From Thermotoga neapolitana DSM 4359 (lineage in GTDB: Bacteria > Thermotogota > Thermotogae > Thermotogales > Thermotogaceae): a stretch of DNA of 64,000 nt. Position 1 is the stretch's first letter. Each line of letters opens with the position of its first letter. This document shows, piece after piece, positions 24,765 through 44,955 of this stretch. Below the pieces are notes generated by a model. That model saw only the letters and a program-made list of their open reading frames with translations, had not been told where the DNA came from and searched no databases. The position numbers and the translations under genes are program-made. The stretch covers positions 1,024,729 to 1,088,728 of the forward strand of contig NC_011978.1 in NCBI RefSeq assembly GCF_000018945.1. The letters are read 5' to 3'.

Positions 24765-26844
<2,080 letters not shown>

Positions 26845-26864
26845 GCAGGAGCAATTAAAAATTG

Positions 26865-26893
26865 TTGAGAACATTCACTCGTTATGCTAAAAT
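26865..26893 (+). promoter_or_regulatory. Promoter of the first Pel cassette
   Basis: TTGAGA (26865-26870) and TAAAAT (26888-26893) are separated by 17 bases, about 28 bases upstream of pelG1. Confidence 0.7.
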
Positions 26894-26920
26894 ATACAAA
26901 AACTACAGGGGTAATCGGGA

Positions 26921-28267
26921 ATGGCTGGAATTTATTTCAAGTTTCCGTTCTTCCGAGATACATTTTTAGGTGCTTCACTGGTTTTCCTTGTTTCGTTTTT
27001 TGAGAATAATTCCTTGTGGTTTATTCCTTTGGTTCTCATAATTTTAGCATCGAAATTTGGTGTTCCTGTTTCACCTTCTACACTTGGGATTCTATCATAT
27101 TCATTCATTGTTTCGACCATGCTTCTAGGTGGATTTGTGCTGATTTTGACAAGATTGATATCAGACTTTTTGTATTTAAAAGATTCTCAGAGAATTTATG
27201 AAAACTATTCAGGATCAATATTTCTTGTAACCCTACTATCTTTTGTAATTGGTATCACAATTTTCAGGGCGTATCAGTACAAAACACTTGCTATTTGGTT
27301 ATTTGTTAGTTTCTCGGTTTTGCGACTTGTTTTATTGTTCGTTGGGAGCATTGAAAAAACACACTTGTTCGTTTTGCCTGTATTGTCTGCTTTCTTGTTT
27401 TTGATAATGTTCTTTAGAACATTTGGAAAAACTTTTGAAGAGAAATATTTGATTATAATAATTACATCTGTGATGAATTTTCTGACTTTTATAGCAAATG
27501 GGATTATCACCAGATATTTAAGAAGTTCTACTCATCCTAGGTTTGATTTTTTTCGTTACGCGCGAAAATATCCTGAATTACCCTTATTGGCATTCTTTTA
27601 TTACCTTTCCTATTGGATTGATAACATATTCATGTGGTTCAAGAAAGGAGTAGAGGTGGCTCCAAATATCATCGTATCTCCTGACTACGATTTTCCATTT
27701 TTTATAGCAGGCATTTCTTTTGTACCGGCTATTATTTTATTCAGTCTGAGCATTGAAACTAGTTTTCTGAAAAAGTATCTATCGTTTTTCTCAGCTATAA
27801 AAAACAACAAAACTCTTGAACAAATAGAGACGCATTTGAGGGAGATACAATTATCCATAAAATATATTCTTCTCAAAACAACATCTATGGTTATTATAAT
27901 AACTATCTTAAATATATCAATAAGCCGATTTTTGAACAAATGGTTTTCTGAATTTTCAATAACAGTTTTTAGAATAGGAACCGTTGGACATGCCTTCAAT
28001 GTTATCTTTTTGTCTATGCTATCGATTTATTTGTATTTCAGTTACTATAGAGAAGCTCTTATAGGGGTCTCTATTTCCTTCTCTGTAAATTCGATTTCAA
28101 CGATAATTTGTGGTACGACAGTACCGGGGTTAGGTTTTCTATTAGCGTTTCTTAGTGGGTCTGCATTTCTTTTAAGAAAAATGAACACAAAAGATTTGAT
28201 ATTCAAAATTTACTCCTCTCAACCTCATGGCTTGGAAAAAGCTGAAAGAATATCTTGGAAACCTTGA
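26921..28267 (+). CDS. PelG-like polysaccharide membrane transporter, cassette 1
   Basis: A 448-residue protein of about 12 hydrophobic helices, homologous along its length to the second copy at 34707. Shared segments include PSTLGILSYSFIVSTML, YFYYLSYWIDN-type FYYLSYWIDNIFMW and the end QPHGLEKAE. PelG is the putative inner-membrane exporter/synthase subunit for Pel exopolysaccharide. Codons are strongly A/T-biased compared with the genes before 26.8 kb, suggesting later acquisition of this cassette. It overlaps pelD1 by 41 bases. The assignment rests on membrane layout and on its PelD- and PelF-like neighbours. Confidence 0.75.
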   Translation: MAGIYFKFPFFRDTFLGASLVFLVSFFENNSLWFIPLVLIILASKFGVPVSPSTLGILSYSFIVSTMLLGGFVLILTRLISDFLYLKDSQRIYENYSGSIFLVTLLSFVIGITIFRAYQYKTLAIWLFVSFSVLRLVLLFVGSIEKTHLFVLPVLSAFLFLIMFFRTFGKTFEEKYLIIIITSVMNFLTFIANGIITRYLRSSTHPRFDFFRYARKYPELPLLAFFYYLSYWIDNIFMWFKKGVEVAPNIIVSPDYDFPFFIAGISFVPAIILFSLSIETSFLKKYLSFFSAIKNNKTLEQIETHLREIQLSIKYILLKTTSMVIIITILNISISRFLNKWFSEFSITVFRIGTVGHAFNVIFLSMLSIYLYFSYYREALIGVSISFSVNSISTIICGTTVPGLGFLLAFLSGSAFLLRKMNTKDLIFKIYSSQPHGLEKAERISWKP

Positions 28268-29429
28268 AAGCAAAAAAACAAACACATATTCTTTGATCGA
28301 AGTATTGATCGTTTACTTAGTCGTGTACTCTGTTACTTTGATTGTTGAACATAAATATATTGAACAATTATATATCATACCATTAATAATTTTTTCGATA
28401 CAACATAATATTGCTGCTCAACTTTTAAATATTTTAATGTATTCTCTCTTTGTGCTTTTCATTTCGAAAAGAGAGTATAATCTTGGAGAAATACTTTTAC
28501 AATATTGCATAATACTTTCAGCTTTTATTTCCTCTTTATTCCATCAAAATCGCATCATCGAAATAAAGCTTTTAAAAGAGGAATTAAAGAGATCAGAAGA
28601 GAAATTGGAGTCATCTAAAAAATATATTAATTATCTAGAAGATGTTATAGATAAGTTAAAAGCAAAATTAATTTATGAAAATGAAGGAATAAGCACTTTG
28701 ATGCTAGATTTATCGTGGGTTTATGTCGAAGATTTAAGGGAATTTGCATATATTTTTCTGGAAAAAGTAACAACTTTCTTGGAGATTAAAAAAGCAGGCT
28801 TTTACTTATATAGAAATGGTTTTTTAAGAGTAATTGCCAGTATAGGTAATCCCTCAATTGGATTTTCTGCTTCGGAGAATCAATCGCTGGTGATAAAAAA
28901 AGCTCTGGAAAAAGGAAGTTGTTCAATATTTGAAGTTTTCAATCAGGTTTCTCACCTTGAAAGAGAACCTTTGTTGGCTGTCAGAGTTGGAGAGGAAAAA
29001 ATCATAGGAGTTATCATCGTAGAAGAACTTGAAGAACCCATTCTTTTGAATAGCATAGAGAAAAACTTGAAGATTCTTTCGGTATGGCTTGCTACGAAAC
29101 TGGAAGGAATTGAGGAGGAAATGAAAAAATACAAGCTACCAGATGGAACATACACTGTTGACTTTTATAATAAAATTAAGCAACGTTTGGCAGACTTCTT
29201 TGAAAAATATGGTCTTCCATTCTCAGAGATCTGTATTTCAATACATAATGATGAATTGAAAAGCGTTCTGAAAGTTATCAGATCTGATGATATCATAGCA
29301 AAAATTAAAGATGATGGCAATAGAATTTCTTTGAAAATACTTTTGCCTTTTTGTGATGAAATAGGACAAATATCGATTATGGAGAGATTAAAACATGTTT
29401 CAAAAACGATTGAGTTTTCAGGTTGTTAA
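28227..29429 (+). CDS. PelD-like c-di-GMP receptor, cassette 1
   Basis: A 400-residue protein. Four N-terminal membrane helices (residues about 20-100) are followed by a coiled coil (KLLKEELKRSEEKLESSKK), a GAF domain (about 150-290) and a degenerate GGDEF domain. The catalytic GGDEF is lost, but an RxxD motif remains as R352-S-D-D355, where the c-di-GMP inhibitory site sits in true GGDEF domains. PelD binds c-di-GMP and switches on Pel synthesis. The ATG at 28227 lacks a clear ribosome site and relies on overlap with pelG1. Strongly A/T-rich codons. Confidence 0.78.
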   Translation: MAWKKLKEYLGNLESKKTNTYSLIEVLIVYLVVYSVTLIVEHKYIEQLYIIPLIIFSIQHNIAAQLLNILMYSLFVLFISKREYNLGEILLQYCIILSAFISSLFHQNRIIEIKLLKEELKRSEEKLESSKKYINYLEDVIDKLKAKLIYENEGISTLMLDLSWVYVEDLREFAYIFLEKVTTFLEIKKAGFYLYRNGFLRVIASIGNPSIGFSASENQSLVIKKALEKGSCSIFEVFNQVSHLEREPLLAVRVGEEKIIGVIIVEELEEPILLNSIEKNLKILSVWLATKLEGIEEEMKKYKLPDGTYTVDFYNKIKQRLADFFEKYGLPFSEICISIHNDELKSVLKVIRSDDIIAKIKDDGNRISLKILLPFCDEIGQISIMERLKHVSKTIEFSGC

Positions 29430-30252
29430 TTTAATCAATTTTTCAATCGCTTTAATCAACTTTTTGATGTGGTTAAATGGAGAAAACAGTATGTTCGATT
29501 TAGTCATAGTGATAAACATTGTCGTACATTTTGCTTTAAACAAAGATCTATCACAATCTATGATAGCACTCGTTACATATCCCTTTGGATTAATCATTTT
29601 TTCGAAGAAAAAAGAGATCGATTTTCGAATTTATGATCAAGAAATTGAAGAAGACTTTCCAGTTCTAAAGGAAAAAAGGCTGGAAATACTTCCTTTAAGA
29701 GGAACTATTTTGTTTGGAACTCCAGATGAAAAAAAGAAACTAATACTTCAAATCGTAGAAGATGTTAAAGATGGAAAAATATCTTCGGATAAGGCTCTTT
29801 CTGTTTTCCGTAAAATGGTGCTCGACCCACATCCAGATGTTGGATTGTACGCATCAGAAGCGATTGGAAAAATAGAAGAATACTTTGGGTTGGTTGAAGA
29901 ATCCTTAGATGAGATTATTAAGAACTTAAATGAAAAGAACATTAAAAATGTTTTAGATTATATAGAATCAGGTTTTTTAGATGGAGAAGTCGGAATTTTT
30001 TATAGGAACATGTTGCTTGAGGGATTGAAGAAAATACCACCCTCACAACCAGAATACTTTGCTCTGCTTTATGAGATTAAAGGAGATGTATTCATACTCA
30101 TAGAGGGATTTTTAAAAACAAAATCCCAGGTGTTGTATAAAAAACTTTTGAAGGAATTATTAAAGAAAAAAGATTATCAAAAACTCAGGTTTTTAATGCT
30201 GTTTGGCCCCTTACCAGATGAAGATAAAGATCTCTATACCTCTTTATCATAA
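29395..30252 (+). CDS. PelE-like protein, cassette 1
   Basis: A 285-residue protein with two N-terminal hydrophobic segments (VVNLINFSIALINFLMWL; MIALVTYPFGLIIF) and a helical, probably repeat-like, cytoplasmic part with FRKMVLDPHPDVGLYASEAI. By position and topology it matches PelE, the helical partner of PelD. It is homologous to the copy at 37242. ATG 29395 follows GGAGAGATTAAAAC. The last 68 bases overlap the convergent pelF1. Confidence 0.68.
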   Translation: MFQKRLSFQVVNLINFSIALINFLMWLNGENSMFDLVIVINIVVHFALNKDLSQSMIALVTYPFGLIIFSKKKEIDFRIYDQEIEEDFPVLKEKRLEILPLRGTILFGTPDEKKKLILQIVEDVKDGKISSDKALSVFRKMVLDPHPDVGLYASEAIGKIEEYFGLVEESLDEIIKNLNEKNIKNVLDYIESGFLDGEVGIFYRNMLLEGLKKIPPSQPEYFALLYEIKGDVFILIEGFLKTKSQVLYKKLLKELLKKKDYQKLRFLMLFGPLPDEDKDLYTSLS

Positions 30253-31600
30253 GATCAAGCCTGTATTTCTTGCGAACGATTTTTTTCGCATTTTGAGAAA
30301 ACACTTTTCTCAGCTCTGCGTCTTCGTACAATTTTAAAATAGCTTTTGCCATCATAATGTGATTTTTAGGAGGTACAATAATTCCACATTGTCCTTCCTC
30401 ATCATAAACCATTTCTTTACATGCACCTACGTCAGTTGCTACAATAGGAACACCTGCTGCCATAGCCTCCAGTATTACGAGAGGTTGTCCTTCTGATACG
30501 CTACTTAGGAGAAGAAGGTCCAGTTTAGGATAGTATTCCCTTACATTTTGTCGTCCTAGGAATTCGACCACATCTTCCAAAAAAAGGTTCTTCGATAGTT
30601 TTTTGCATTCTTCATAATAATCCTGTTCCTCATCTGTTGGGCCGATTATCAAAAATTTTATCTTTTTATTTCTTAAGACATCTTTCACTACTCTTATGGA
30701 CCTTATAGCTGTTTTTACGTCTTTTATTCGGGTAACTCTTCCGACAAAACCTATTATAAATCCTTCGTGTTTTTCTTTGGGCATATCAAATTTGTCTACA
30801 TCAACTCCGTTAGGTATTATCACCATTTTTTTCGGATCAGCACCAAGTTCCAGCTGAAAGAGTTGATTTTTTTTAAAAAGAGTGGTTAATGAGTCACAGG
30901 TATTATACGCTATCATACTAATTGCTCTGAACAAATTAATCCACATGGTTTTGTAGTCTTCGGGAAGCCACTTAGAGATGATTATTTCCCTTTCTCTTTC
31001 TCTATGATAAATCCCGTGTTCTGTTATTATTAGTGGGACATTGTAAAGAAACTTTCCCACAACCCCCACAAGAGAGGCGTAGCCTGTACTTGGAACGTGA
31101 AATATATCACACTTTTCAGGAACAAAATTCAAAGAATTTACGATGGGGAGAATCAAATTTCTGATGACCCAATAGTATTCAGTGAATCCTCTATGACTGA
31201 AAAAGTTTCTGTATGTTTTAACTACAAGGTTCCAGAATTCTTTACTAGAGAATATTTTGGAAAAAGACTTTCCGGCATTTTTTTCTATAAAATTCTCTAG
31301 TATAGAAACCAGTTCTTCCAAGCTTCGGTTTTTTACAATTACATCTGTTATGGTGTCGAGCATTGAAAGATCGGCCTTTTCAGAGATATCGGGATCGAAA
31401 TCCCCAAAAATGTTTACCTCGTGTACACGAACCACGTTTTTTGGTATTTTGTACCTGACTTCTCTCTTTTTTGAATCTGGTCGTAAGTGATAGATTTCAA
31501 ACTCAAATTCTGGAAGATTGGAGATAAGTGTTTGGATCCAACTTGAAACACCTCCTGTAATGTAAGGGTAAGTACCTTCAGCAATAATACCTATCCTCAT
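30185..31600 (-). CDS. PelF-like GT4 glycosyltransferase, cassette 1
   Basis: A cytosolic 471-residue glycosyltransferase that would polymerise the Pel sugar chain from a UDP-sugar. It has the PelF-type opening GTYPYITGGVSSWIQTLI and the hallmark TEHGIYHREREREI. The GT4 donor site follows: IIGFVGRVTRIKDVKTAI, LSSVSEGQPLVILEAMAAGV and PIVATDVGACKEM. It starts at ATG 31600 by alignment with the second copy; ATG 31612 directly abuts GGAGGG and is less likely. Unlike G, D and E it is on the minus strand, after the lipoprotein gene, and it is AT-rich. Confidence 0.85.
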   Translation of the reverse strand: MRIGIIAEGTYPYITGGVSSWIQTLISNLPEFEFEIYHLRPDSKKREVRYKIPKNVVRVHEVNIFGDFDPDISEKADLSMLDTITDVIVKNRSLEELVSILENFIEKNAGKSFSKIFSSKEFWNLVVKTYRNFFSHRGFTEYYWVIRNLILPIVNSLNFVPEKCDIFHVPSTGYASLVGVVGKFLYNVPLIITEHGIYHREREREIIISKWLPEDYKTMWINLFRAISMIAYNTCDSLTTLFKKNQLFQLELGADPKKMVIIPNGVDVDKFDMPKEKHEGFIIGFVGRVTRIKDVKTAIRSIRVVKDVLRNKKIKFLIIGPTDEEQDYYEECKKLSKNLFLEDVVEFLGRQNVREYYPKLDLLLLSSVSEGQPLVILEAMAAGVPIVATDVGACKEMVYDEEGQCGIIVPPKNHIMMAKAILKLYEDAELRKVFSQNAKKIVRKKYRLDLMIKRYRDLYLHLVRGQTALKT

Positions 31601-31623
31601 ATTTGTTTTCATCCCTCCGAAAA

Positions 31624-32556
31624 CTATTCCGCAGGTTGTATTCCCTCTATTATATTTACCTCATCGAGTTGCAAATCAGATTTGGCTGCGTAGGGAATGT
31701 AAACCTTTTCTTCACATTTTTTGTAATAATCCAGAATGCGCTCCAGATTTTCTAAAGAATCACTACCGTCGTCCACGTAGTCAACAGAGAGAACAAATTT
31801 TCCGTGCCACCTCAACATATCCAGGTAATGTATTCTACTCTCAGTTTCTTCATCTGGAAGTGGTGTGGTTTTTAAGTAAAAGAGATTTTCAACACTCCAG
31901 CCAGAAACGAACGAGAGTATTCGCCCATCGTCGAACTCAAGGATGTTTTCGCCGTTCTGTGGGATTATCAGGATGTCAGGATTTTCTTTTCTGATGTATT
32001 CTGCTATATCTTCAATCAAATCTATCATCCGCCTGGCTGCCTCTTCTTTTGAGATCTGTCCCGTTGACGACCAGTATTCGAAGGAATCGACTCTATCCAG
32101 ATACACACCTTTGAATCCCTGTGAAAGGATCCTATCGATGTAAGAAAAGATTATATCCTTCCATTCCGGATACCAGTATTTCACGAAGTAATTTCCTGGC
32201 CACATTTTATCTTCTTCTCCAAGCCACTCAGGGGGATTTTCATACCAATCATTTTTCCAGTAAAAACGATAATCTTCCGCTTGTCCTATGTTCAGGTACG
32301 CAACAGGAACAACTCCTGCGTCCAGCATGATTTTTATTTCCTCCTGGGAGTATTCACCCTTTTCACTTCCGTCTCTGGAATAATCTATGACGGCGAGTTC
32401 AAAACCAGAGGAAGCAATTTCAGAGGGATCAGCATTCTGGAGTTGATAGAGCCAGTTTTTGAAAGGTATCTCCCATTCATCTTGAAAGGTCATGCCACAC
32501 GAAGCTATGATCAATGCTATTATAGAAATGAGCAAATTTCTTTTCGTAGAAACCAC
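31624..32556 (-). CDS. TM1410-type glycosidase lipoprotein (PelA hydrolase half)
   Basis: A 310-residue protein of the TM1410 family, a TIM-barrel glycosidase domain also found at the N-terminus of PelA. A lipoprotein signal with IIALIIASC is followed by ELAVIDYSRDGSEKGEYS, VPVAYLNIGQAEDYRFYW, GFKGVYLDRVDSFEYW and ILIIPQNGENILEF, which are conserved in the family. It should trim or release exopolysaccharide outside the membrane. The GTG at 32556 overlaps its own GGAGGTG, so the true start is uncertain. Only 16 bases separate it from the divergent DUF2194 gene. Confidence 0.85.
   Translation of the reverse strand: MVSTKRNLLISIIALIIASCGMTFQDEWEIPFKNWLYQLQNADPSEIASSGFELAVIDYSRDGSEKGEYSQEEIKIMLDAGVVPVAYLNIGQAEDYRFYWKNDWYENPPEWLGEEDKMWPGNYFVKYWYPEWKDIIFSYIDRILSQGFKGVYLDRVDSFEYWSSTGQISKEEAARRMIDLIEDIAEYIRKENPDILIIPQNGENILEFDDGRILSFVSGWSVENLFYLKTTPLPDEETESRIHYLDMLRWHGKFVLSVDYVDDGSDSLENLERILDYYKKCEEKVYIPYAAKSDLQLDEVNIIEGIQPAE
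32515..32523 (+). promoter_or_regulatory. Candidate extended -10 promoter for the DUF2194 operon
   Basis: TGCTATTAT (32515-32523) lies inside the divergent lipoprotein gene, about 50 bases before GTG 32573. No convincing -35 is seen. Confidence 0.4.
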
Positions 32557-32572
32557 CTCCGGGGTGATTCAT

Positions 32573-34717
32573 GTGAAAAAGATGTTCCTAGTGATGTTAT
32601 TTTTGATCTCCTATCTGACCCTTTCTAGGACTCTCCTTCTTTACAAAGGTTCTGAGAATGGATATGGAACTGATGTGCTTTCATCTTATATTATCCCTGT
32701 CCTGAAAAACCTGTACGAAGATTACGATCTGGTTGATGTGGAAAAAGAACTGCCTGATCTTTCAGAGTACGATCTTGTTGTGACCTGTTATTATTCCTCG
32801 AAGATGAGAAACGCAAAGATCTATCTGAAAAAACTATCGGAATACGTTCTCAACGGAGGAAAAATATTTGTAATAAACAACCTTGGAGCCTTTGAAGATC
32901 CATCGGGAGACAGTCCTGGCCTTTCTGATATAAATGCTTTGTTGAATCTTATCGGTGTTCGCTATGAGTATAACTGGCGTCAGGAGGATGTTCTAGATCT
33001 GAAAGTCGATCAGGAATATCTCCTGAAAAGAGTGACACTCCCCGTGAGGAAATCTTTCGATGGATTTTCGATTTTTTCGCCGACTGTAAAAGTTCTGATG
33101 TACGCCGTGACGAGCAGAGGTAATTACCCGGTGATTTTTTATGGAGAACGTGGAGGAATGGCAATTTTTGAGCATGCTTTCGACGAAAGAGGCAATGCCG
33201 TGATAGATTTGGGAAAGATCGTAAGAGACATTCTTCTTTTCAACAAAACAAACCGGATTCTTCTTTTGAAGGAGAACACTCATGTAAAAAAGACGTTCGA
33301 GAATGCTCTTTTCGAAGTGGACACATCGCCCAGGTATCCTCTTTCTTACTATAAGGGCGTGGTGATAACCGAAGATACTCTTCTGGAAAGAGAGGACGTG
33401 AAGAATTACATTGAAAACGGAGGAAGTGTTATTTTTCTTGGAAAGGGGACACATTCAATAACTGGAAATCTTGTACTTGAGAAAAAGCATCTTTACATCC
33501 CAGAAAACATCAACGTGGGATATCACTATGTTAGTTACAGACCTGCTCCTCAAGATGCAGAGGTTTTCATGACGGTAGACGGAACACCTGTTTCCTGGAT
33601 GGTGAAAAGAGGTAAGGGAACTCTTGTGTACTTTCCTCCCGATCTTCTCGAAAAGTGGTCCAGAGGAATTCTGTTTAATGAATTTCTTGTCTCATCTGGT
33701 TTGATAGTCTCTCCCATTGTAAATGTTTTTTCCATCTTCTTTGATGATTTTCCCCTTCCGTCTTATGGTATCAAGCACGATATAACGGGTACGGCGGATG
33801 AAATATTCTATTACAAGATCTGGTGGGAAGATATGAAAAAGCTGTGCAAAGAGTATTCTATGAGGCCGTTTACCGCGCTGATAACAAGTTACAACAACAA
33901 ACCTGAGTACGTTGGTTTTCTTGAGTTTTTGCAGAGCAGGGTCACTCTTGATTTTTTAAAGACGCTTCTGGAAGCAAAGGATGTGAATGTGGGCTTGCAT
34001 GGATACAACCATCTTCCTCCTCTACAAAAAAACTGGAATCCCGATGAATTGAAGATCTCTTACAAAGCTTTGAAGACTTTCCTGAATGAACTTTCAAAAT
34101 CGTATGTTCCTTTCTTTTTTGTGGCTCCCAACAACGAAATTGATAAGGCAAGTATAGAGATTTTGAAAGAGATCTTTCCTTCGATAAAGATCGTTGGGAC
34201 TTCTTATTTGGCAGAAACCGAAACAAGTGAGTACGAAATCTTCGAGGATGTATTGATTTTGCCGAGGACCACAAGTGGGCACTATCCTGTTCAGAGACTT
34301 CTTGTTGAAACCATGTCCACTCTCTTGAACATGGGAACTTTCCATTATTTCACCCATCCTGACGATGTGATCAGTTCCAACAGGAATCCGGAGAGCCGAA
34401 ACTGGGAGTACATGCTTGGACAACTGAGGGAATTTTTCCGTGTAATAAAAAGAAATTACCCATGGTTGAGAAATATGACACCTGAGGAACTGTACGATAC
34501 CTTCAAAGATTACTTCGAAAATAAACCGACAATCGTTTATCATAAAGATAAAATAAATGTGATATTGAATTCGCGTGCAAAACTCCCGCGCTATTTCTTC
34601 CTCAAGAGTGATCAGGATTTTTCCATTCAAGGTGGAGAGTTGATCTATGAAAGAAATGGCTTGTGTGTAATAGAGATGAAAGAAAGGAAAATGGAGGTAT
34701 TGTTGAATGGCGGGTAA
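32573..34717 (+). CDS. DUF2194 protein, PelA deacetylase-like half
   Basis: A 714-residue secreted protein. The signal peptide (KKMFLVMLFLISYLTLS) is followed by a flavodoxin/GATase-like region (residues about 30-200) and, from about 385, a NodB/PelA-like deacetylase domain: IFSIFFDDFPLPSYG, VNVGLHGYNHLPPL and FHYFTHPDDVIS give the Asp-Asp and His-rich metal motifs. DUF2194 is found in Pel-type operons. It probably removes acetyl groups from the sugar polymer at the cell surface. GTG 32573 has GGGGTGA six bases upstream; the longer reading from 32492 removes the signal peptide. It overlaps pelG2 by 11 bases. Confidence 0.78.
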   Translation: MKKMFLVMLFLISYLTLSRTLLLYKGSENGYGTDVLSSYIIPVLKNLYEDYDLVDVEKELPDLSEYDLVVTCYYSSKMRNAKIYLKKLSEYVLNGGKIFVINNLGAFEDPSGDSPGLSDINALLNLIGVRYEYNWRQEDVLDLKVDQEYLLKRVTLPVRKSFDGFSIFSPTVKVLMYAVTSRGNYPVIFYGERGGMAIFEHAFDERGNAVIDLGKIVRDILLFNKTNRILLLKENTHVKKTFENALFEVDTSPRYPLSYYKGVVITEDTLLEREDVKNYIENGGSVIFLGKGTHSITGNLVLEKKHLYIPENINVGYHYVSYRPAPQDAEVFMTVDGTPVSWMVKRGKGTLVYFPPDLLEKWSRGILFNEFLVSSGLIVSPIVNVFSIFFDDFPLPSYGIKHDITGTADEIFYYKIWWEDMKKLCKEYSMRPFTALITSYNNKPEYVGFLEFLQSRVTLDFLKTLLEAKDVNVGLHGYNHLPPLQKNWNPDELKISYKALKTFLNELSKSYVPFFFVAPNNEIDKASIEILKEIFPSIKIVGTSYLAETETSEYEIFEDVLILPRTTSGHYPVQRLLVETMSTLLNMGTFHYFTHPDDVISSNRNPESRNWEYMLGQLREFFRVIKRNYPWLRNMTPEELYDTFKDYFENKPTIVYHKDKINVILNSRAKLPRYFFLKSDQDFSIQGGELIYERNGLCVIEMKERKMEVLLNGG

Positions 34718-36083
34718 GAGTTTTGATTTGCTCTTTTCAAAGAACACCCTTTTTGCAGACGCTCTAGCGTTCTTTTATTCCACGTTCATATACTTTGCCC
34801 CGTGGCTGGTTGTCTTATTTTACATAGTCTGGGTTTCCAGATGGTTTTCTCCCTCCCCATTTTTCCTTGGTGTTTTGACTTACTCTCTCATATTCTCCAT
34901 GATAATTTCAGGCGGAATGTCTTTTCTGATATCCCGTTTCCTGGCAGACAGCATTTACAGAAAGGACTTCAGAAGAATCTACGAAAGTTACATCGGAGCA
35001 GTTCTTCTTGTTTTTGTGGTGTCTTTTGTCGTTGGATGGATGTTCTTCATCTTGAACGATCAATATTCCACCGTTCAGAAAGTGCTTGCCTGTTATGCGT
35101 TGATTGGCTTTTCACTTGTGTGGATACAGATGCAGTTTGCATCCGTTACTGAGAGGAGTTCTTTGATCGTGCTTTCTTTCATACTTGGATTTTCAGTTTC
35201 GGTGTTTCTTGCCAGATACTGGCAGACGGATTTTTCAGAAAAGCTCCTTCTGGTGCTGGACGTGGGAATTGGTTTGATCATCTTTGCGCTCAACTATCTT
35301 GTATTGAGTTACTTAAGAAATTCCACAAGAATGGGATTTGGTTTTCTGACCCTGACAGGAAAATATCCGCAGTTGATCTTTGTTGGCTATTTTTATTACC
35401 TGTCGATCTGGATCGACAACTTCATCATCTGGAAAGCAAAAGGCCAGGAGATATCTCCGGGGTTTTTCTTGTTTTCAGAGTACGATATACCGAAGTTTAT
35501 TGCTGCTCTGTTCTTTATACCGAGTCTTGCTGTGTTCAACGTTGCTATGGAAACAGTGTTCAGAAGAGACTATAAGAATCTCATGTTGTCCATTGTGAAC
35601 AACTCCCCTCTGAAAACCATAAAAGAGAATATGGCAAAGCTTTCCATCTCTCTGAGACAAGCCTTTTTCAGCATGCTTTCCCTGAATCTTGCAGCGCTTG
35701 TTTCGTCTTTCTTTCTGGCACATCCTATCAGAGGGTGGTTCAATTTATCGGAGAATTTCGTTGGTATATTCTTCTGGCTCAGTATGGGTGTGAGTATGAA
35801 TATATCTTTTCTGTCGCTTCTTGTTCTGGTCCTTCATATGGAGTATTACTGGGTTGCTTTTGAAAGTTCTGCTCTGGTGCTGACGTTAAACACCCTGCTT
35901 TCCGTTTTGACGATCGAAAAATTCCCTGGACTCAGTTTTTTCGTTTCCTTTTCATCAGGATTTGTTTATCTTCTTCTGCGGTTCAGGTCGAAAGATTTTC
36001 TTCACGAAGAGTATGTGAAACAACCACTGGGTTTGGAGAAGAGCAAAGTGGAGGTTAAAAAACTTGGGGAGTTGAGAAAGTGA
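34707..36083 (+). CDS. PelG-like polysaccharide membrane transporter, cassette 2
   Basis: A 458-residue membrane protein with about 12 helices, co-linear with the copy at 26921. FFLGVLTYSLIFSMIISGG, GYFYYLSIWIDNFIIWKA and QPLGLEKSK are shared. Codon use is closer to the main chromosome than in cassette 1. It starts at ATG 34707 after GGAGGT and overlaps the DUF2194 gene by 11 bases and pelD2 by four, so A(deacetylase)-G-D-E form one operon. Confidence 0.78.
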   Translation: MAGKSFDLLFSKNTLFADALAFFYSTFIYFAPWLVVLFYIVWVSRWFSPSPFFLGVLTYSLIFSMIISGGMSFLISRFLADSIYRKDFRRIYESYIGAVLLVFVVSFVVGWMFFILNDQYSTVQKVLACYALIGFSLVWIQMQFASVTERSSLIVLSFILGFSVSVFLARYWQTDFSEKLLLVLDVGIGLIIFALNYLVLSYLRNSTRMGFGFLTLTGKYPQLIFVGYFYYLSIWIDNFIIWKAKGQEISPGFFLFSEYDIPKFIAALFFIPSLAVFNVAMETVFRRDYKNLMLSIVNNSPLKTIKENMAKLSISLRQAFFSMLSLNLAALVSSFFLAHPIRGWFNLSENFVGIFFWLSMGVSMNISFLSLLVLVLHMEYYWVAFESSALVLTLNTLLSVLTIEKFPGLSFFVSFSSGFVYLLLRFRSKDFLHEEYVKQPLGLEKSKVEVKKLGELRK

Positions 36084-37276
36084 GGAAAAGAAGAAAACTC
36101 TGGTTCCTGGAGGTTCTTGTCGCGTATTCCGTGGTTTTCTTCTTTGACTACGTATACGAAACGAATGTCTTTGAGAAGAGTTTTCTCAATTTTTACTGGA
36201 TTCCTCTTCTTTTCTTCAGTGTAAGGTACGATTTGGTTGTACACGTGTTCAATGTGTTGGCCTACGCTTTTTCTGTAATCCTTTCAATTACGTTGAGGGA
36301 TCAGAGTTTTGCCTTTCCTGAAGATTTTGCACTGGCAAATTCCATAATTGTCGGTGTATCTACCGTTCTTGCATTGATGAACGAGAAAAGGGTGAAAGAA
36401 ATAGAACGTCTGTCCTTAGATCTCAAAAACAGGGAGAACGATGTGACTGAGTTAAGTAAAACTGTTCAAGATCTACGAAAGAAGTTGAACTCACTGGAAC
36501 TCAAAATGTTCTATGAAGGGGCAGGGATCAGTTCGCTTCTTGTGAAACTGAGAGAAATTCCAACGGATGATTTTGCGGAGTTTTCCCAGAAATTCGTTGA
36601 AACGATTTCGGAGTTCTTTGATTTGAAAAGGATTTTCATCTATGAATACAAGGATGGTTTTTTGAGATTTGTAGCAGGAACGGAAAAGCCAGACCTTGGA
36701 TTTTCACTCAAGAAAGGAGAGTCCGTTGTTGTAGAAAACGCTTTGAAAGAGGGAGTTTGTAGTATTGTTGATGTTATAGAGAGTGTCTCTTCTCAGAATG
36801 AACCGTGGCTGGCTGTGAAGATAGGTACTGATGAAGAGATACTTGGAGTGATAACGGTAGAGGAAGCAGAAACGCTCGAGATTGAAACGGTAGAGGAGTA
36901 TCTTGTGTCTCTTGCAGATTGGATATACCTGGTGATGAGAAAGCTGGACTTCCACAGATACGATAAGTACAGACTGGATGACGGTACCTTTCCACCGGAG
37001 TTCTACGAGAACGAAAAAAGAAAATACAAAACCCTCGAGATACAATACGGTATTCCGTTCACAGAGTCCTGTTTGATACTGAATAAAAGAAGCCTCAGAA
37101 AACTCCTGAGTGCTCTCAGAAAGAGCGACCTGGCTGTGAAAATCTTTGAGGATGAAGACAACGTCTCTCTTAAGATACTTCTTCCCCTATGTGATGAAAT
37201 CGGGTTTGGCATAGTTAAAAAGCGTCTGGAAGGTGAGATAGATGAGATCAAATTTGTCAGTTGTGAATCTCATTAA
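36080..37276 (+). CDS. PelD-like c-di-GMP receptor, cassette 2
   Basis: A 398-residue receptor with four N-terminal membrane helices, a coiled coil (about 105-140; ELSKTVQDLRKKLNSLELKM), a GAF domain (about 150-285) and a degenerate GGDEF domain. The RxxD motif is R347-K-S-D350 in LRKSDLAVKIF; the GGDEF sequence itself is replaced by an acidic stretch, so it should bind but not make c-di-GMP. GTG 36080 overlaps the pelG2 stop. Two HD-GYP genes lie within 7 kb downstream and could lower its ligand. Confidence 0.82.
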   Translation: MRKRRKLWFLEVLVAYSVVFFFDYVYETNVFEKSFLNFYWIPLLFFSVRYDLVVHVFNVLAYAFSVILSITLRDQSFAFPEDFALANSIIVGVSTVLALMNEKRVKEIERLSLDLKNRENDVTELSKTVQDLRKKLNSLELKMFYEGAGISSLLVKLREIPTDDFAEFSQKFVETISEFFDLKRIFIYEYKDGFLRFVAGTEKPDLGFSLKKGESVVVENALKEGVCSIVDVIESVSSQNEPWLAVKIGTDEEILGVITVEEAETLEIETVEEYLVSLADWIYLVMRKLDFHRYDKYRLDDGTFPPEFYENEKRKYKTLEIQYGIPFTESCLILNKRSLRKLLSALRKSDLAVKIFEDEDNVSLKILLPLCDEIGFGIVKKRLEGEIDEIKFVSCESH

Positions 37277-38039
37277 CTTCTCTATAGGACTTCTGAACGT
37301 TGGTTTATGGATCAACGGAAAAAACGACTTCCTGCTCGTCATTTTTCTTTTGAATCTGGTTATAAATTTTCTGGTGAACAGAGATCTTTCGCAGGTACTT
37401 ATAGCTGCTCTGACCTATCCTCTGGGCCTTATAGTACCCCTTAAAAGGAAAAAACCACCGTTTGAAGGTATGGAAAAAACAACTGAAATGGAAGTGCTCA
37501 GAAAGATTTCGAGAAAATCTCTGAAAGAAAGTGTATTCTTCGAAAACGCAACCACCAGGCGCGAAACGATTTTGAGAGTTTCAGAAGACGTTGAAAGAGG
37601 TGAGGTCTCTCTGGAGACGTTCATGAAAGTTTCCAAGAGGTTGATGAAGGATTCCGATTCGGATGTTGTACTCTACGCAACAGAAAGTACGGGAAAGGTG
37701 GAACGCTCTTTTGAAGACGTGGAAAAATTTCTCTCCGGAGTTCCTTTTGAAGAAACCAGAATTTTTTACGGGAGAGTCTGGGATTATCTCGAATCGGATT
37801 TTTTGACAGGAGGAGTTGAAAAATACTACAAAAAATCGATCCTGGCTCGAATCGGAAGAATGGAGAAGGATGAGAAGTATTTCGTGATGAAATACAGGGT
37901 GGATAAAGATCCGACAGTTTTATGGGAAGGTCTGGAAAAGACGAAGTCTCCTTTGATATATAAAATGCTTATGATCGAACTTTTGAAGCGGAAGGATATT
38001 GAGGGAGTCAGGAAATTGAAGGAACTCTTTTCTCAATGA
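37242..38039 (+). CDS. PelE-like protein, cassette 2
   Basis: A 265-residue protein with two hydrophobic segments at the N-terminus (VVNLINFSIGLLNVGLWI; VLIAALTYPLGLIVPL) and a helical cytoplasmic part. It is homologous to the copy at 29395. It starts within pelD2 (35-base overlap) after AAGGTGAGATAG. Its last 32 bases overlap the convergent pelF2, the same unusual arrangement as in cassette 1. Confidence 0.7.
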   Translation: MRSNLSVVNLINFSIGLLNVGLWINGKNDFLLVIFLLNLVINFLVNRDLSQVLIAALTYPLGLIVPLKRKKPPFEGMEKTTEMEVLRKISRKSLKESVFFENATTRRETILRVSEDVERGEVSLETFMKVSKRLMKDSDSDVVLYATESTGKVERSFEDVEKFLSGVPFEETRIFYGRVWDYLESDFLTGGVEKYYKKSILARIGRMEKDEKYFVMKYRVDKDPTVLWEGLEKTKSPLIYKMLMIELLKRKDIEGVRKLKELFSQ

Positions 38040-39420
38040 GCGAAAGATAGATTTTTCTGTAACTTTCGATCATGCGGTCGAGCCTGTATTTTTGAACCAC
38101 TCTACGGGTGTTTTTTGAGAACATCTCTCGCAGTTCATTATCTTCGTAAATCCTCACTATGGCTTTTGCCATGGAGAAATGATCTTTCGGCGGAACGACA
38201 ATACCACATTGCCCATCCCTGTCGTACAGCATCTCCTTACACGAACCTACGTCTGTGGCAACAATTGGTAGCCCAGACGCCATGGCTTCAAGAATTACAA
38301 GAGGCTGACCCTCCGACACACTGCTTAGAAGAAGTAGATCCATTTTTGGATAGTACTCTTTTACATTCTGAGGTCCCAGAAACTCTACGGTGTCTTCCAG
38401 TTTCAAAACTTCAACCATTCTTTTGCACTCTGTGAGATAATCTTCTTCGTCTGCAGGTCCTATGACAAGAAACTTCAGTTTTTCTCGCTGGCCGATCATC
38501 TCTTTAACAAGGCTGATGGCCCTGATTGCAGTCTTCAGATCCTTTATTCTGGAGACACGCCCCACGAATCCTATTATGAAACCCTCGTGTGGCTCTTTTG
38601 GGAGTGAGTAAGCATCAACATCTATAGCATTCGGTATCACGATCATTTTTTCTGGATCTGCTCCGAGTTTTAACTGATAAGCCTGATTCTTTCTAGAAAG
38701 TGTGGTCAGAAGATCCGACATTTCATAAGCGATCATGCTCATAATTCTAAAGAGTTGCACCCACATTGGTTTGTAACTGTCGGGAACCCATGAAGAAAGA
38801 AGGATTTCCCTTTCTCTCTCCTTGTGGTATATGCCGTGCTCCGTTATCAGAAGTGGAGAACCATAAATCACTTTCCCATTTATTCCAACAAGAGAAGCAT
38901 AACCTGTGCTTGGCACATGGTAAATATCGCATCTGTCCGGGGTGAATTGGAGGGCATTGATAACAGGGAGAAAAAGGTTCATTATCATCCAGTAGTACTC
39001 GGTAAAGCCTCTTTCAGAAAAGAAATTTTCGTATATTTTCACCATGATGCTCCAGAATCTTCTTGTTTTAAGCATCTTTCTGATGCTTTTTCCTGTGTTT
39101 TTTTCGATGAATTCAATGGCAAATGGAATTATCGATTCGATCGCCTTTCCTGAAGAAATCTCAGATATTATCCTTTCTAGAGGATCAAAATCAACTTTTC
39201 CAGAGATTTTCGGCTGGAAGTCTCCGAATATATTTAACTCGTGAATTGCTATCACGTTAGATGGGACTTCATATTTGACACTCCGAACTTTGTTGTCGGG
39301 TTTCAGGTAGTATATTTCAAAATCGAACTCTGGAAGATTGATTATTAGCGTGTGAACCCAACTTGAAACCCCACCAGTTACATAAGGATACGTCCCCTCA
39401 AGAACAAGACCTACCTTCAT
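38008..39420 (-). CDS. PelF-like GT4 glycosyltransferase, cassette 2
   Basis: A 470-residue glycosyltransferase closely similar to the copy at 30185. It has GTYPYVTGGVSSWVHTLI, TEHGIYHKEREREIL, IIGFVGRVSRIKDLKTAI and LSSVSEGQPLVILEAMASGL. It should polymerise the Pel sugar in the cytoplasm together with PelG. ATG 39420 follows AGGAGGAAAAAAC. It is transcribed alone, divergently from the HD-GYP gene, with only 63 bases between the two starts. Confidence 0.88.
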   Translation of the reverse strand: MKVGLVLEGTYPYVTGGVSSWVHTLIINLPEFDFEIYYLKPDNKVRSVKYEVPSNVIAIHELNIFGDFQPKISGKVDFDPLERIISEISSGKAIESIIPFAIEFIEKNTGKSIRKMLKTRRFWSIMVKIYENFFSERGFTEYYWMIMNLFLPVINALQFTPDRCDIYHVPSTGYASLVGINGKVIYGSPLLITEHGIYHKEREREILLSSWVPDSYKPMWVQLFRIMSMIAYEMSDLLTTLSRKNQAYQLKLGADPEKMIVIPNAIDVDAYSLPKEPHEGFIIGFVGRVSRIKDLKTAIRAISLVKEMIGQREKLKFLVIGPADEEDYLTECKRMVEVLKLEDTVEFLGPQNVKEYYPKMDLLLLSSVSEGQPLVILEAMASGLPIVATDVGSCKEMLYDRDGQCGIVVPPKDHFSMAKAIVRIYEDNELREMFSKNTRRVVQKYRLDRMIESYRKIYLSLIEKRVPSIS

Positions 39421-39447
39421 GTTTTTTCCTCCTGATTTGATGAGACA

Positions 39448-39475
39448 CTCGATTTATGAGAAAATAAAAATCGAG
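39448..39475. repeat. Inverted repeat between pelF2 and the HD-GYP gene
   Basis: CTCGATTT (39448-39455) and AAATCGAG (39468-39475) flank a 12-base AT-rich centre in the divergent promoter region. It could be an operator for both genes; no regulator is identified. Confidence 0.4.
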
Positions 39476-39483
39476 GTGATAAG

Positions 39484-41181
39484 ATGTCACAGCGAAGATT
39501 GAGTGAGATCGTAAGAGATCTCGTTTACAAAAGGAATCTGCTGCTCGTTTTTATTATATCAATCGCTGTGGCCATTTTTGTGTTCATGATCACGTTCCAG
39601 ATCGACAAAAGATCCTGGTTTGAGAAGATCGATCTGATATCGGGTGAATGGTACCGGGTGATAGACAACTACCAGAACACTCTCAACTTCTTTGTGGCTC
39701 GCCCTGGAGACTTCAAAAATCCTGGAGATATTCTGGAAGTTTTAAAACTGATCCGTGAGCACTTTGGAGATTACATAGCCTACCCGATCTTTGCAACTCC
39801 AGATGGAAAGTATTACATCTATCCTCCCTACGACTTTCCTTCCGATTATGATCCAAGGAAAAGACCATGGTATAGATCTGCCGTTGAAAATCCCAATACT
39901 TCCGTCATCTCACCTCCCTTCACTCACAGAATACTTGGAGTGGTCACATTCGGCATTTCAAGGGCCATCTTTGACAAAGAAGGGAATTTTCTGGGGGTTC
40001 TTGCGATCGATATCGTTCCTGATAGGGTAATGAAAGATCTTTTGCTTTCTGGCATGTATGTGACCTCAAATGATGGTACGGTACTTCTTCAAAACGGTGA
40101 TATCTACGTTCGACTCGATCCTGAAGATTTGAGATCTTCAAGTGAAGGATTCAAAATGGAAATCTCCGGTGTTGCTTTTTTCAAAAAGAAGGGTGAGATG
40201 TTCTTCGTTGTGCAGGTTCCGCTGCTCACCTTCTTGAGAAACTCTCTGTTTCATCTGGGATACGTGATAGGACTTTCGCTTCTTTTCTCTGTTCCGATCG
40301 TCAGAAGAATAACAAGATTGCTCGACAGAGAGTTGGAAAAGCCGCTTGAGAAATTTTCGGGTGCTGCAGAAGAGTACCTGCGTTCCAGAGTTTTCGATAT
40401 CGCAGGAATATCCTCAAGCATTTTTGAAATCAATCAACTGATAGACAACGTGGCCGACATGATAACGATCATAGAATCCCAGAGAGAAGAACTCGAAGCG
40501 TCCTATGAGGAACTGGAAGCGTCTTACTCCGAACTCCAGAAAATGGCACAGAAGATAGAAGAAAAGAGCAAAGCCCTCTCTGAAGCCTATGAATTCTTTG
40601 CTTACAAACTTGCAGACATAGTAGAGGGTTTTGACGAGCCAACGGGAAGCCATGTCAAAAGGATTCAGGAAATATCCAGGTTTCTCGCCGAGAAGATGGA
40701 ATTGCCATCTGAACTTGTGCGTCAGATCTACATCTACGCACCTCTTCACGACATAGGGAAGATAAAAGTTCCTAAGGAGATACTGAACAAGAAGGGAAAA
40801 CTCACGCCTGAGGAATGGGAGATCATGAAGAAGCACACCATCTGGGGAGGAGAACTGCTCTCCGGTAGCAAAGAACTGGAAGTGGCAAAAAACATCGCAC
40901 TGTACCATCACGAAAACTACGATGGAACAGGATATCCCTTCGGGTTGAAAGACGATGATATCCCAATAGAGGCCCAGGTTGTCAAACTGGTCGATGTCTA
41001 CGATGCTCTCCGATCGGAAAGACCCTACAAGAGAGCATTGACACACGAAGAGGCTGTGAAGGTGATACTCGAGGGAGATGAAAAGACCACCCCGTCTCAG
41101 TTTCATCCCAGATTGATCGAGATATTCAAAAACTATCACGAGGAGATCAGAAAGATCTGGGAAAAAGTCTCCTCTGAATAA
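39484..41181 (+). CDS. Membrane HD-GYP c-di-GMP phosphodiesterase with Cache sensor
   Basis: A 565-residue protein. A membrane helix at about 20-40 and a dCache-type outside domain (ATPDGKYYIYPPYDF, DPRKRPWYRSAVENP, LGVLAIDIVPDRVM) are followed by a second helix near 260, a coiled coil (ELEASYEELEASYSELQKM) and an HD-GYP domain. The HD-GYP motifs are complete: PLHDIGKIKVPKEIL, HHENYDGTGYPFGLK and VKLVDVYDALRSERPYK. It should degrade c-di-GMP on an external signal and thereby lower Pel synthesis by PelD. It starts at ATG 39484 after GAGGTGATAAG. Confidence 0.92.
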   Translation: MSQRRLSEIVRDLVYKRNLLLVFIISIAVAIFVFMITFQIDKRSWFEKIDLISGEWYRVIDNYQNTLNFFVARPGDFKNPGDILEVLKLIREHFGDYIAYPIFATPDGKYYIYPPYDFPSDYDPRKRPWYRSAVENPNTSVISPPFTHRILGVVTFGISRAIFDKEGNFLGVLAIDIVPDRVMKDLLLSGMYVTSNDGTVLLQNGDIYVRLDPEDLRSSSEGFKMEISGVAFFKKKGEMFFVVQVPLLTFLRNSLFHLGYVIGLSLLFSVPIVRRITRLLDRELEKPLEKFSGAAEEYLRSRVFDIAGISSSIFEINQLIDNVADMITIIESQREELEASYEELEASYSELQKMAQKIEEKSKALSEAYEFFAYKLADIVEGFDEPTGSHVKRIQEISRFLAEKMELPSELVRQIYIYAPLHDIGKIKVPKEILNKKGKLTPEEWEIMKKHTIWGGELLSGSKELEVAKNIALYHHENYDGTGYPFGLKDDDIPIEAQVVKLVDVYDALRSERPYKRALTHEEAVKVILEGDEKTTPSQFHPRLIEIFKNYHEEIRKIWEKVSSE

Positions 41182-41201
41182 TGAATTTCTCTGTGGAAGA
41201 C

Positions 41202-41237
41202 TTGACTTCTTATCCTATATATGTAAAATACATATAT
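41202..41237 (+). promoter_or_regulatory. Promoter with overlapping palindromic operator
   Basis: TTGACT (41202-41207) and TAAAAT (41224-41229) are 16 bases apart. A perfect inverted repeat ATATATGTA (41217-41225) / TACATATAT (41229-41237) with three central A covers the -10 box, so a dimeric repressor would block the promoter. Confidence 0.65.
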
Positions 41238-41250
41238 GGGAGGTGAGAAT

Positions 41251-41457
41251 ATGTGGTGGGGCAGAGGATTTGGCTGGAGAAGAGGATGGAGAGGAGGATT
41301 CGGTTTTGGAGGGCCGTGGTGGTTTTACTTCGAGTATCCTCCCACACCGCCTACTCCTGAAGAAGAAAAAGAAATGCTCTTGGACTACAAAAGGTTTCTT
41401 GAAGAAGAACTCAGATATGTTGAGGAAAGATTGAAAGAACTCGAAAACAGGAGGTGA
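41251..41457 (+). CDS. Small Gly/Trp/Arg-rich protein with helical C-terminus
   Basis: A 68-residue protein. The first 30 residues are rich in Gly, Trp, Arg and Phe (MWWGRGFGWRRGWRGGFGFG). The second half is an amphipathic charged helix (EEEKEMLLDYKRFLEEELRY). It resembles DUF5320-type small proteins. ATG 41251 follows GGGAGGTGAGA; an ATG at 41236 lies within the ribosome site. It is first in an operon with a similar small protein and a metallo-beta-lactamase-fold protein. The function is unknown; binding of an oxyanion or metal cofactor is a guess from typical neighbours. Confidence 0.7.
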   Translation: MWWGRGFGWRRGWRGGFGFGGPWWFYFEYPPTPPTPEEEKEMLLDYKRFLEEELRYVEERLKELENRR

Positions 41458-41462
41458 GTAAT

Positions 41463-41672
41463 ATGCCAAGGCTTGATGGAACGGGTCCACTCGGTCTGGG
41501 ACCGATGACCGGCAGAGGACTTGGATGGTGCAGATACACTGGCCCGTGGGGCTGGGTAAGACCCTGGATGTGGTGGAGAGGCTTTGGATGGGGCTGGAGA
41601 AGAGGATGGGGATTTGGAATGGGTCTTGCCTGGAGACACAGAAGAGGCTGGGGCTGGAGAGGCTGGTGGTGA
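41463..41672 (+). CDS. DUF5320-like small Gly/Trp-rich protein
   Basis: A 69-residue protein beginning MPRLDGTGPLGLGPMTGRGL, the typical opening of DUF5320 proteins, then a Trp/Gly/Arg-rich tail. It starts at ATG 41463 after AGGAGGTGAGTAAT, six bases after the previous stop. Proteins of this type often sit near MRP/ParA-like ATPases and NifX-like proteins in anaerobes; here the partner is a metallo-beta-lactamase-fold protein. Function unknown. Confidence 0.75.
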   Translation: MPRLDGTGPLGLGPMTGRGLGWCRYTGPWGWVRPWMWWRGFGWGWRRGWGFGMGLAWRHRRGWGWRGWW

Positions 41673-41723
41673 AACGAAGGGGGCAACAGGCCCCCTGAGT
41701 ATTTTTCAAGTGGAGGGAAAAAA

Positions 41724-42491
41724 GTGCGCATATATATCCTGTGTGACGACTCGTCCCTGGGGGACTTCGAACACGAACACGGCTTTTCCGCGCTGGTGGA
41801 TTCCGTTCTTTTCGATACGGGAAAATCCAGTGTGTTTTTAAAGAATGCTGAAAGATTCGGTGTGAATCTCCCGGAGGATGTGGTCGTAAGCCACGGTCAC
41901 TACGACCACGTTGGTGGCCTTTTGCTTTTGACCGGAAAGCGTTTGTGGATCAGGAAAAAAGCCCTGAAACCAAAATATTCCGGTGATAGATACATAGGCG
42001 CTCCTTTTGAGTGGGAAGAGGTTCTTTCGAAGAACGAAACTCGATTTGTAAGCGAAAAGGTGGTTGAAATCAAACCAGGAGTATTTCTTATGGGACCTGC
42101 AAACCTGAGAAACAGAGTCTTTTCTGGAGAGTTTCTTGTGGGAAAGGAAAGGAAGATAGATCTTTTCGAAGACGAACAAACGCTGGTGGTGGATTCAAAG
42201 GGAGGATTGATCATCGTTACAGGGTGCTCTCATCGCGGAATAGACAACATAGTACTGGACGCTGTGGAAACGTTTAAAAAGAAGATTCATCTGGTACTGG
42301 GGGGATTTCATCTTTTGAGATCCTCCGAAAGGGAAATAGAAGATATCGTAGAGCTCTTCAACAAGATCGATGTGAAAACTGTAGCACCATGTCACTGTAC
42401 AGGAAAAAAGGCTGTGGACATTTTCAAAGAAAGATTCAAGGGAAATCTACTGGAATGCCGTGCTGGGGTTACTTTTGAAGTTTCAAATTGA
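41724..42491 (+). CDS. Metallo-beta-lactamase-fold hydrolase
   Basis: A 255-residue MBL-fold protein. The metal motif is VVVSHGHYDHVGGL (H-x-H-x-D-H); later ligands are in VTGCSHRG and APCHCTG. The pattern matches the COG1237 group, related to archaeal dihydropterin-pathway enzymes, but the substrate cannot be given. It starts at GTG 41724 after GGAGGG. The last 23 bases overlap the convergent HD-GYP gene. It shares the operator-controlled promoter at 41202 with the two small DUF5320-like genes. Confidence 0.85.
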   Translation: MRIYILCDDSSLGDFEHEHGFSALVDSVLFDTGKSSVFLKNAERFGVNLPEDVVVSHGHYDHVGGLLLLTGKRLWIRKKALKPKYSGDRYIGAPFEWEEVLSKNETRFVSEKVVEIKPGVFLMGPANLRNRVFSGEFLVGKERKIDLFEDEQTLVVDSKGGLIIVTGCSHRGIDNIVLDAVETFKKKIHLVLGGFHLLRSSEREIEDIVELFNKIDVKTVAPCHCTGKKAVDIFKERFKGNLLECRAGVTFEVSN

Positions 42492-43644: not shown

Positions 43645-43670
43645 CCGCTATCCCTCCAGCAACTCTGTGT

Positions 43671-44177: not shown

Positions 44178-44181
44178 ACCG

Positions 44182-44895: not shown

Positions 44896-44955
44896 GCTTT
44901 CACCTCCATTCACGATTTTAACCGAAATGTCGATAATCATAACGGGGGCGAGTGA

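Follow-up and report, generated by a model that had tools for sequence, protein, structure and literature searches.

Two sets of genes for a Pel-type exopolysaccharide synthase, arranged around a single hydrolase gene and a single deacetylase gene, are found in a stretch of 64,000 nucleotides of the Thermotoga neapolitana DSM 4359 genome (contig NC_011978.1, positions 1,024,729 to 1,088,728; the whole stretch is hereafter called the window, and features are given by its positions). The preferred reading, to which a probability of about 0.72 is assigned, is that these are two paralogous Pel-type synthases served by one shared maturation set, that they result from an old duplication followed by differential loss, and that they make the same kind of polymer in response to different inputs. 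Cassette 1 (26921-31612) and cassette 2 (34707-39420), with about 3 kb between them, each consist of pelG, pelD and pelE on the plus strand and a convergent pelF on the minus strand, which is the arrangement that a preliminary description of this DNA had read from its open reading frames (ORFs). That description called them two complete Pel cassettes; PelD, PelF, PelG and a predicted PelE are indeed present twice, but they are the only doubled components, and the hydrolase and deacetylase are single-copy in the locus, so that each cassette amounts to a full synthase module of the inner membrane (PelD-E-F-G) but falls short of a full pel operon. All eight cassette genes have intact reading frames.

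The assignment of the locus to the Pel system, also made in the preliminary description, is borne out by PelF and PelG, which in both cassettes exceed the curated cut-offs of Pfam and NCBIfam. The GT4 glycosyltransferases encoded by pelF1 (30185-31612, minus strand, with a 3' end that overlaps pelE1 convergently) and pelF2 (38008-39420, minus strand, convergent with pelE2) score 345 and 320 bits, respectively, against the equivalog model NF038011 (cut-off 100) and match the Pfam family DUF3492 with E-values of 4e-82 and 1e-79. The membrane exporters encoded by pelG1 (26921-28267, plus strand, 12 hydrophobic segments) and pelG2 (34707-36083, plus strand, with an 11-base overlap with the deacetylase gene) match the Pfam PelG family with E-values of 1.1e-58 and 7.2e-95. 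The copies are homologous gene by gene and clearly diverged, as had been noticed, with 62% protein sequence identity for PelF, 31% for PelG, 34% for PelD and 36% for PelE. Across both copies, PelF has 201 invariant columns and nine fixed differences between the two types, and both types have the same EX7E motif (at residue 374 of PelF1 and residue 370 of PelF2). PelG1 has 49% identity to its counterpart in another Thermotoga genome (G093) and 31% to PelG2.

Because the library models do not match PelD or PelE, these proteins were assigned by position, topology and hidden Markov models (HMMs) of families defined within the Thermotogota, and PelD additionally by an RxxD motif with an arginine 35 residues on, by a weak profile match and by predicted fold. 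The predicted receptors of cyclic dimeric guanosine monophosphate (c-di-GMP) encoded by pelD1 (28227-29429, plus strand) and pelD2 (36080-37276, plus strand) are homologous to each other and to other Thermotogota PelD proteins. The residues that correspond to a c-di-GMP site are R352, D355 and R387 in PelD1 (RSDD at R352) and R347, D350 and R382 in PelD2 (RKSD at R347), and the spacing of the arginines is that of R367, D370 and R402 of Pseudomonas aeruginosa PelD, each of which is needed for c-di-GMP binding (PMC2170427). The counterparts R363, D366 and R395 have a role in the c-di-GMP response of Bacillus cereus PelD (PMC7112168). Both Thermotoga PelD proteins thus appear to keep the signature of a GAF/degenerate GGDEF-type receptor with a putative c-di-GMP site. 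The preliminary description had proposed profile searches with PelF and PelD as a check, of which the PelF result is strong and the PelD result is limited to a weak sequence-profile match to the P. aeruginosa PelD structures. A Foldseek search with a model of PelD2 also returned P. aeruginosa PelD (4eu0, 4euv, 4dmz) as the top matches, with E-values of 2e-3 to 5e-3; this AlphaFold model was built from three input sequences and is of low confidence (predicted local distance difference test score 53 overall), and its usable part is the C-terminal domain alone. The predicted membrane-anchored scaffolds encoded by pelE1 (29395-30252, plus strand) and pelE2 (37242-38039, plus strand) are homologous to each other, match the Thermotogota PelE HMM, and have the expected position, size and N-terminal membrane segments.

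Between the cassettes are the two single-copy genes of the predicted maturation set. The glycosidase lipoprotein (31624-32556, on the minus strand like pelF1, which it directly precedes), of family GH191 and GH114-like, is orthologous to TM1410 of T. maritima (E-value about 1e-148 to the TM1410 structures; 424 bits against TIGR01370) and has a weak match to P. aeruginosa PelA (E-value 5e-4). Family GH191 is defined by two enzymes, of which TM1410 is one, and cleavage of Pel has been shown for one member of this family (PMC12054363); D154 and E223 of the window protein keep the 69-residue spacing of Asp156 and Glu225 in the T. maritima enzyme, TmGH191. The membrane-anchored polysaccharide deacetylase (32573-34717, plus strand; Pfam DUF2194, E-value 4e-153) is encoded by an ORF that opens at 32492, and its conserved N-terminus points to a start near 32573. 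By profile match, its catalytic domain resembles the structure of B. cereus PelADA (9ZAU, E-value 1.6e-63), and its invariant residues D418, D419, H503, H507, H622 and D625 (ORF numbering) align with the metal-binding and catalytic residues D262, D263, H350, H354, H488 and D491 of PelADA. B. cereus PelADA is a polysaccharide de-N-acetylase that is needed for pel-dependent biofilms, and its N-terminal helix has been modelled as PelG-binding (PMC13254593). By their predicted activities, the hydrolase and deacetylase together amount to a PelA divided over two genes. Adjacency of the deacetylase gene and pelG is retained in other Thermotogota loci. The pair is kept with a cassette-1-type synthase alone in the Thermotoga genome G095 and with cassette 2 alone in T. 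maritima, which suggests that synthases of either type can be served by a single maturation pair. When PelG1 and PelG2 were compared by sliding identity, the C-terminal helices proposed to hold the deacetylase did not stand out clearly as conserved, and the comparison is compatible with either a shared or a dedicated deacetylase. PelB-like and PelC-like genes are absent from the annotated genes of the locus, the rest of the genome not having been searched for them, and an outer-membrane partner is not evident, since in 19 Thermotogota loci no further gene family is a frequent neighbour of pel.

The product expected of a Pel-type system is an alpha-1,4-linked, partly deacetylated N-acetylgalactosamine polymer. 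In the preferred reading, cytoplasmic PelF would polymerize N-acetylgalactosamine, probably from uridine diphosphate N-acetylgalactosamine, once membrane-bound PelD binds c-di-GMP, and each PelD would gate its own PelF in this manner. PelE would hold the complex together and PelG would export the chain, which the single DUF2194 deacetylase would modify as it emerges and the single GH191 lipoprotein would trim or release. A sensory HD-GYP protein encoded next to cassette 2 could reduce the c-di-GMP by which both synthases would be gated. With so many invariant columns and so few fixed differences in PelF, the same chemistry is likely in both cassettes, and the divergence of the membrane and regulatory parts to 31-36% identity fits different partners or inputs. 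The two copies therefore most probably produce one kind of polymer and do so under different conditions or in response to different inputs; the preliminary suggestion that the two synthases respond to different signals is plausible.

The distribution of these genes was examined in 103 Thermotogota genomes, including the source genome, and 14 named control genomes, among which PelG was found only in T. maritima. Of the 103 genomes, 41 have PelF and 40 have PelG, and two full sets are present only in T. neapolitana, G093 and G094, all of one genus. The outgroup genera of the family have a single deacetylase-pelG-pelD-pelE layout with a convergent pelF, which indicates that cassette 2 occupies the ancestral place and that the added unit is cassette 1, next to the hydrolase gene. 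Several other Thermotogota loci (L041, L042, L043, L050, L051, L054) have pelF alone or with the deacetylase gene only; in these cases, pelG is at another place of the genome or was not found (G087).

In a tree of concatenated PelG, PelD, PelE and PelF sequences, cassette 1 of the three genomes and the single cassette of G095 form one clade (support 100/100) to which cassette 2, represented by four genomes (100/100), is sister, and both are inside the Thermotoga branch (100/100). The single-gene trees of PelG (100/99) and PelD (100/98) agree, as does that of PelF weakly (87/88); an initial PelF tree, which included the chimeric T. maritima sequence described below and a distant Omnitrophota sequence, was distorted by long branches and was replaced by trees of tight sets. 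A duplication younger than the divergence of G095 was rejected by the approximately unbiased test (p 0.00016). In the tree of the single-copy deacetylase, G095 is the outgroup of the four remaining Thermotoga loci with this gene (100/99), which fits a duplication older than the G095 split followed by loss of cassette 2 in G095, where an HD-GYP gene is located directly 3' of the deacetylase gene, in the place where cassette 2 would be. The trees give no support to a donor outside the genus. The pelGDE/pelF unit would thus have been duplicated before the sampled Thermotoga species diverged, and the copies appear to be old paralogs inside the genus that were differentially lost, in agreement with one of two origins offered in the preliminary description, an old duplication that drifted.

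Losses are recorded in the genomes of relatives. Both cassettes are present in T. neapolitana, G094 and G093, cassette 2 only in T. maritima (genome G091, which we take to be strain MSB8), a cassette-1-type set only in G095, and neither cassette in G092 (presumably T. petrophila RKU-1) and G096. T. maritima has lost pelG1, pelD1, pelE1 and most of pelF1, and the remaining stub, consisting of the first 89-93 codons of pelF1 with about 87% identity to the window, continues in frame into the 3'-terminal 156 codons of a helicase gene, forming a chimeric ORF (C1:1427297-1428034; L037:17297-17998, then L059:297-1034). The full-length helicase gene is elsewhere in the T. maritima genome beside a large array of clustered regularly interspaced short palindromic repeats (CRISPR), and at the junction 556 bases that are 98.7% identical to the place of the full-length helicase are followed by CRISPR repeats and then by the normal flank. 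G093 has 97.9-99.3% identity to T. maritima in the sequences that flank the lesion and carries both cassettes; from its two cassettes and the stub it follows that both predate the split of T. maritima and T. neapolitana. In G093, an array of 18 CRISPR repeats between a GH32 gene and pelG1 (about 13600-14760 in L060/L038, a joined stretch from C9:78001) forms the left boundary of the pel island. At the empty site of G092 (C1; L083:12310-12810), the GH32 gene is followed by six CRISPR repeats and then by the bases just past pelF2. The T. maritima junction would be explained most simply by recombination between CRISPR arrays. A search of plasmids with the inserted T. maritima sequence gave no match, and these CRISPR repeats are absent from the locus in the window, G094 and G095.

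The first cassette is AT-rich, as was visible to the preliminary description, with a GC content of 0.30-0.36; cassette 2, like the central genes, has 0.40-0.42, and the flanks are mostly at 0.46-0.50. At third codon positions, the GC content (GC3) rises from 0.26-0.32 in cassette 1 to 0.42-0.50 across cassette 2 and the centre, and to 0.52-0.585 in the left flank. Cassette 2 is likewise AT-rich relative to the flanks, a point to be added to that description. The same GC3 pattern is found in cassette 1 of G093 and G094, and the relative in G095 has a GC3 of 0.40-0.45. Synonymous differences between cassette 1 of the window and of G093 (pS 0.67-0.78 per site) are near saturation and both copies still have a GC3 of about 0.3, so any donor composition should have faded and the low GC content is locally maintained, for which mutation, expression level, silencing or repeated exchange may be responsible. 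In comparison with G094, the ratio of nonsynonymous to synonymous rates (dN/dS) is 0.07-0.19 for the genes of cassette 1 (0.07 for pelF1) and 0.08-0.20 for those of cassette 2; all eight genes are under purifying selection, and both cassettes are thus kept by selection. Two more AT-rich ORFs of the window, at 47530-48306 (GC3 0.33) and 51668-53452 (GC3 0.31), are outside the locus.

The other origin offered in the preliminary description, that one cassette was acquired later, does not agree with these data. That cassette 1 was acquired laterally, recently or from an AT-rich donor outside Thermotoga whose composition it retains, would explain its difference in GC content from the flanks, the interspecies differences in synteny at the locus and the empty site of G092, but is extremely improbable: cassette 1 is found in the corresponding position in G093 and G094 and has left its stub in T. 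maritima, so that it is older than the split of T. maritima and T. neapolitana; it is nested with G095 in a clade of the genus; and its GC3 persists despite near-saturation of synonymous sites, while the GC3 of its G095 relative is higher. In the preliminary description, sister copies of equal base composition were to count against transfer; the PelG and PelD trees and, weakly, the PelF tree give sister clades, and the compositions are unequal. Transfer within the genus, from a G095-like Thermotoga into the ancestor of T. maritima and T. neapolitana beside a resident cassette, would account for the clustering of cassette 1 with G095, the different place of the G095 cassette in its locus and the discordant PelE tree, and is a minority possibility, since G095 is the outgroup in the deacetylase tree, used here to stand for the species tree, which fits vertical descent after an older duplication, and the junction of the deacetylase and HD-GYP genes in G095 looks like loss of cassette 2. 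Decay of cassette 1 into a non-working state is suggested by its AT-richness, by its absence from T. maritima and G092, and by identities to G094 of 74% for PelG1 and 69% for PelD1 compared to 87% for PelG2 and 83% for PelD2; with four open genes, the low dN/dS ratios, intact motifs, and a PelF1 that is better conserved than PelF2 between the window and G093 (82% versus 71%), such decay is highly unlikely.

The possibility raised at the outset that two synthases make two chemically different polymers finds little support and is rather improbable: the low identity of PelG, PelD and PelE between copies would permit it, but PelF, which sets the sugar, is by far the more similar protein with the same EX7E motif, and one deacetylase and one hydrolase would have to serve both products. 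A further variant, which is unlikely, is that the two synthases are switched against each other on the same deacetylase and hydrolase, so that the length, rate or acetylation of the polymer is set by whichever synthase is active, and that the whole island is gained or lost at its CRISPR-array border. The reading of two paralogous synthases with one maturation set has several points to contend with: PelD and PelE of both copies have no significant match in Pfam or NCBIfam; the identity of the polymer is a prediction from the genes; the T. maritima GH191 enzyme was inactive on the galactosaminogalactan (GAG) oligomers tried (PMC12054363); in the PelE tree by itself, G095 branches outside the two cassettes (87/81); cassette 1 is AT-rich without a demonstrated cause; and the same topology would result if cassette 1 had passed from one Thermotoga lineage to another before T. 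maritima and T. neapolitana split.

Among known systems, pelDEADAFG of B. cereus ATCC 10987 (PMC7112168, PMC13254593) resembles the Thermotoga locus in its PelD, PelF and PelG, in a PelE that is a predicted one in Thermotoga, in its membrane-anchored deacetylase homologous to DUF2194 (9ZAU), the same c-di-GMP residues of PelD, and no recurrent PelB-like or PelC-like gene at the locus; the Thermotoga locus differs in having two PelD-E-F-G sets around one deacetylase, a GH191 hydrolase, a pelF convergent with pelGDE, and a hyperthermophilic host with an outer toga. Shared with pelABCDEFG of P. aeruginosa are the PelF and PelG families, the spacing of the PelD site, and a hydrolase and deacetylase that correspond to the two halves of PelA; in Thermotoga, however, the functions of PelA are on two genes, the hydrolase is GH191 rather than GH166, the synthase set is doubled, and PelB and PelC are not seen in the locus. 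Single-cassette pel loci of the Thermotogota, including the TM1410 locus of T. maritima, have the same families, many of them with the deacetylase gene and pelG adjacent, and a convergent pelF is common to pel loci of the Thermotogaceae; the second full set is what distinguishes T. neapolitana, G093 and G094. Duplicated pel operons have been reported in Nitrosospira multiformis and Leptospirillum ferrooxidans by a 2020 survey of synthase-dependent exopolysaccharide operons, in which all duplicated operons were at least 10 kb apart and transfer was suggested (PMC7112194). By contrast, the Thermotoga copies are close together, around shared genes, and are paralogs in one genus; a tandem pair of paralogous Pel synthases around one maturation set, in a hyperthermophile, departs from the separation of at least 10 kb in that survey. 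No literature on Thermotoga pel genes was found beyond a mention in the survey and the GH191 structure paper (PMC12054363). The relatives with both, one or no cassette constitute a natural experiment on the role of each synthase, and the series of losses opens to test whether a single deacetylase can serve both exporters and how Pel could leave the cell without recognizable PelB or PelC. TM1410 (TmGH191), which has a solved structure and no assigned function, is placed in a Pel locus.

A promoter-like site with an extended -10 element (TTGAGA-17-TAAAAT, 26865-26893, plus strand, 10 of 12 consensus matches) is located just 5' of pelG1; in the consensus scan, such sites occur across the region at a rate little above chance and give no indication of function or of separate regulation. 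An Rfam scan of 26000-46000 found neither a riboswitch nor another known RNA. The gene adjoining cassette 2 (39484-41181, plus strand) encodes a dCache-HD-GYP protein, a probable sensory c-di-GMP phosphodiesterase (Pfam HD_5, E-value 7e-35; dCache_1, E-value 2e-14), which adjoins the locus in G094 also and adjoins the deacetylase gene in G095. A second HD-GYP-type protein without this dCache sensor is encoded at 42469-43644, also past cassette 2, and homologs of both proteins are encoded near the G095 locus.

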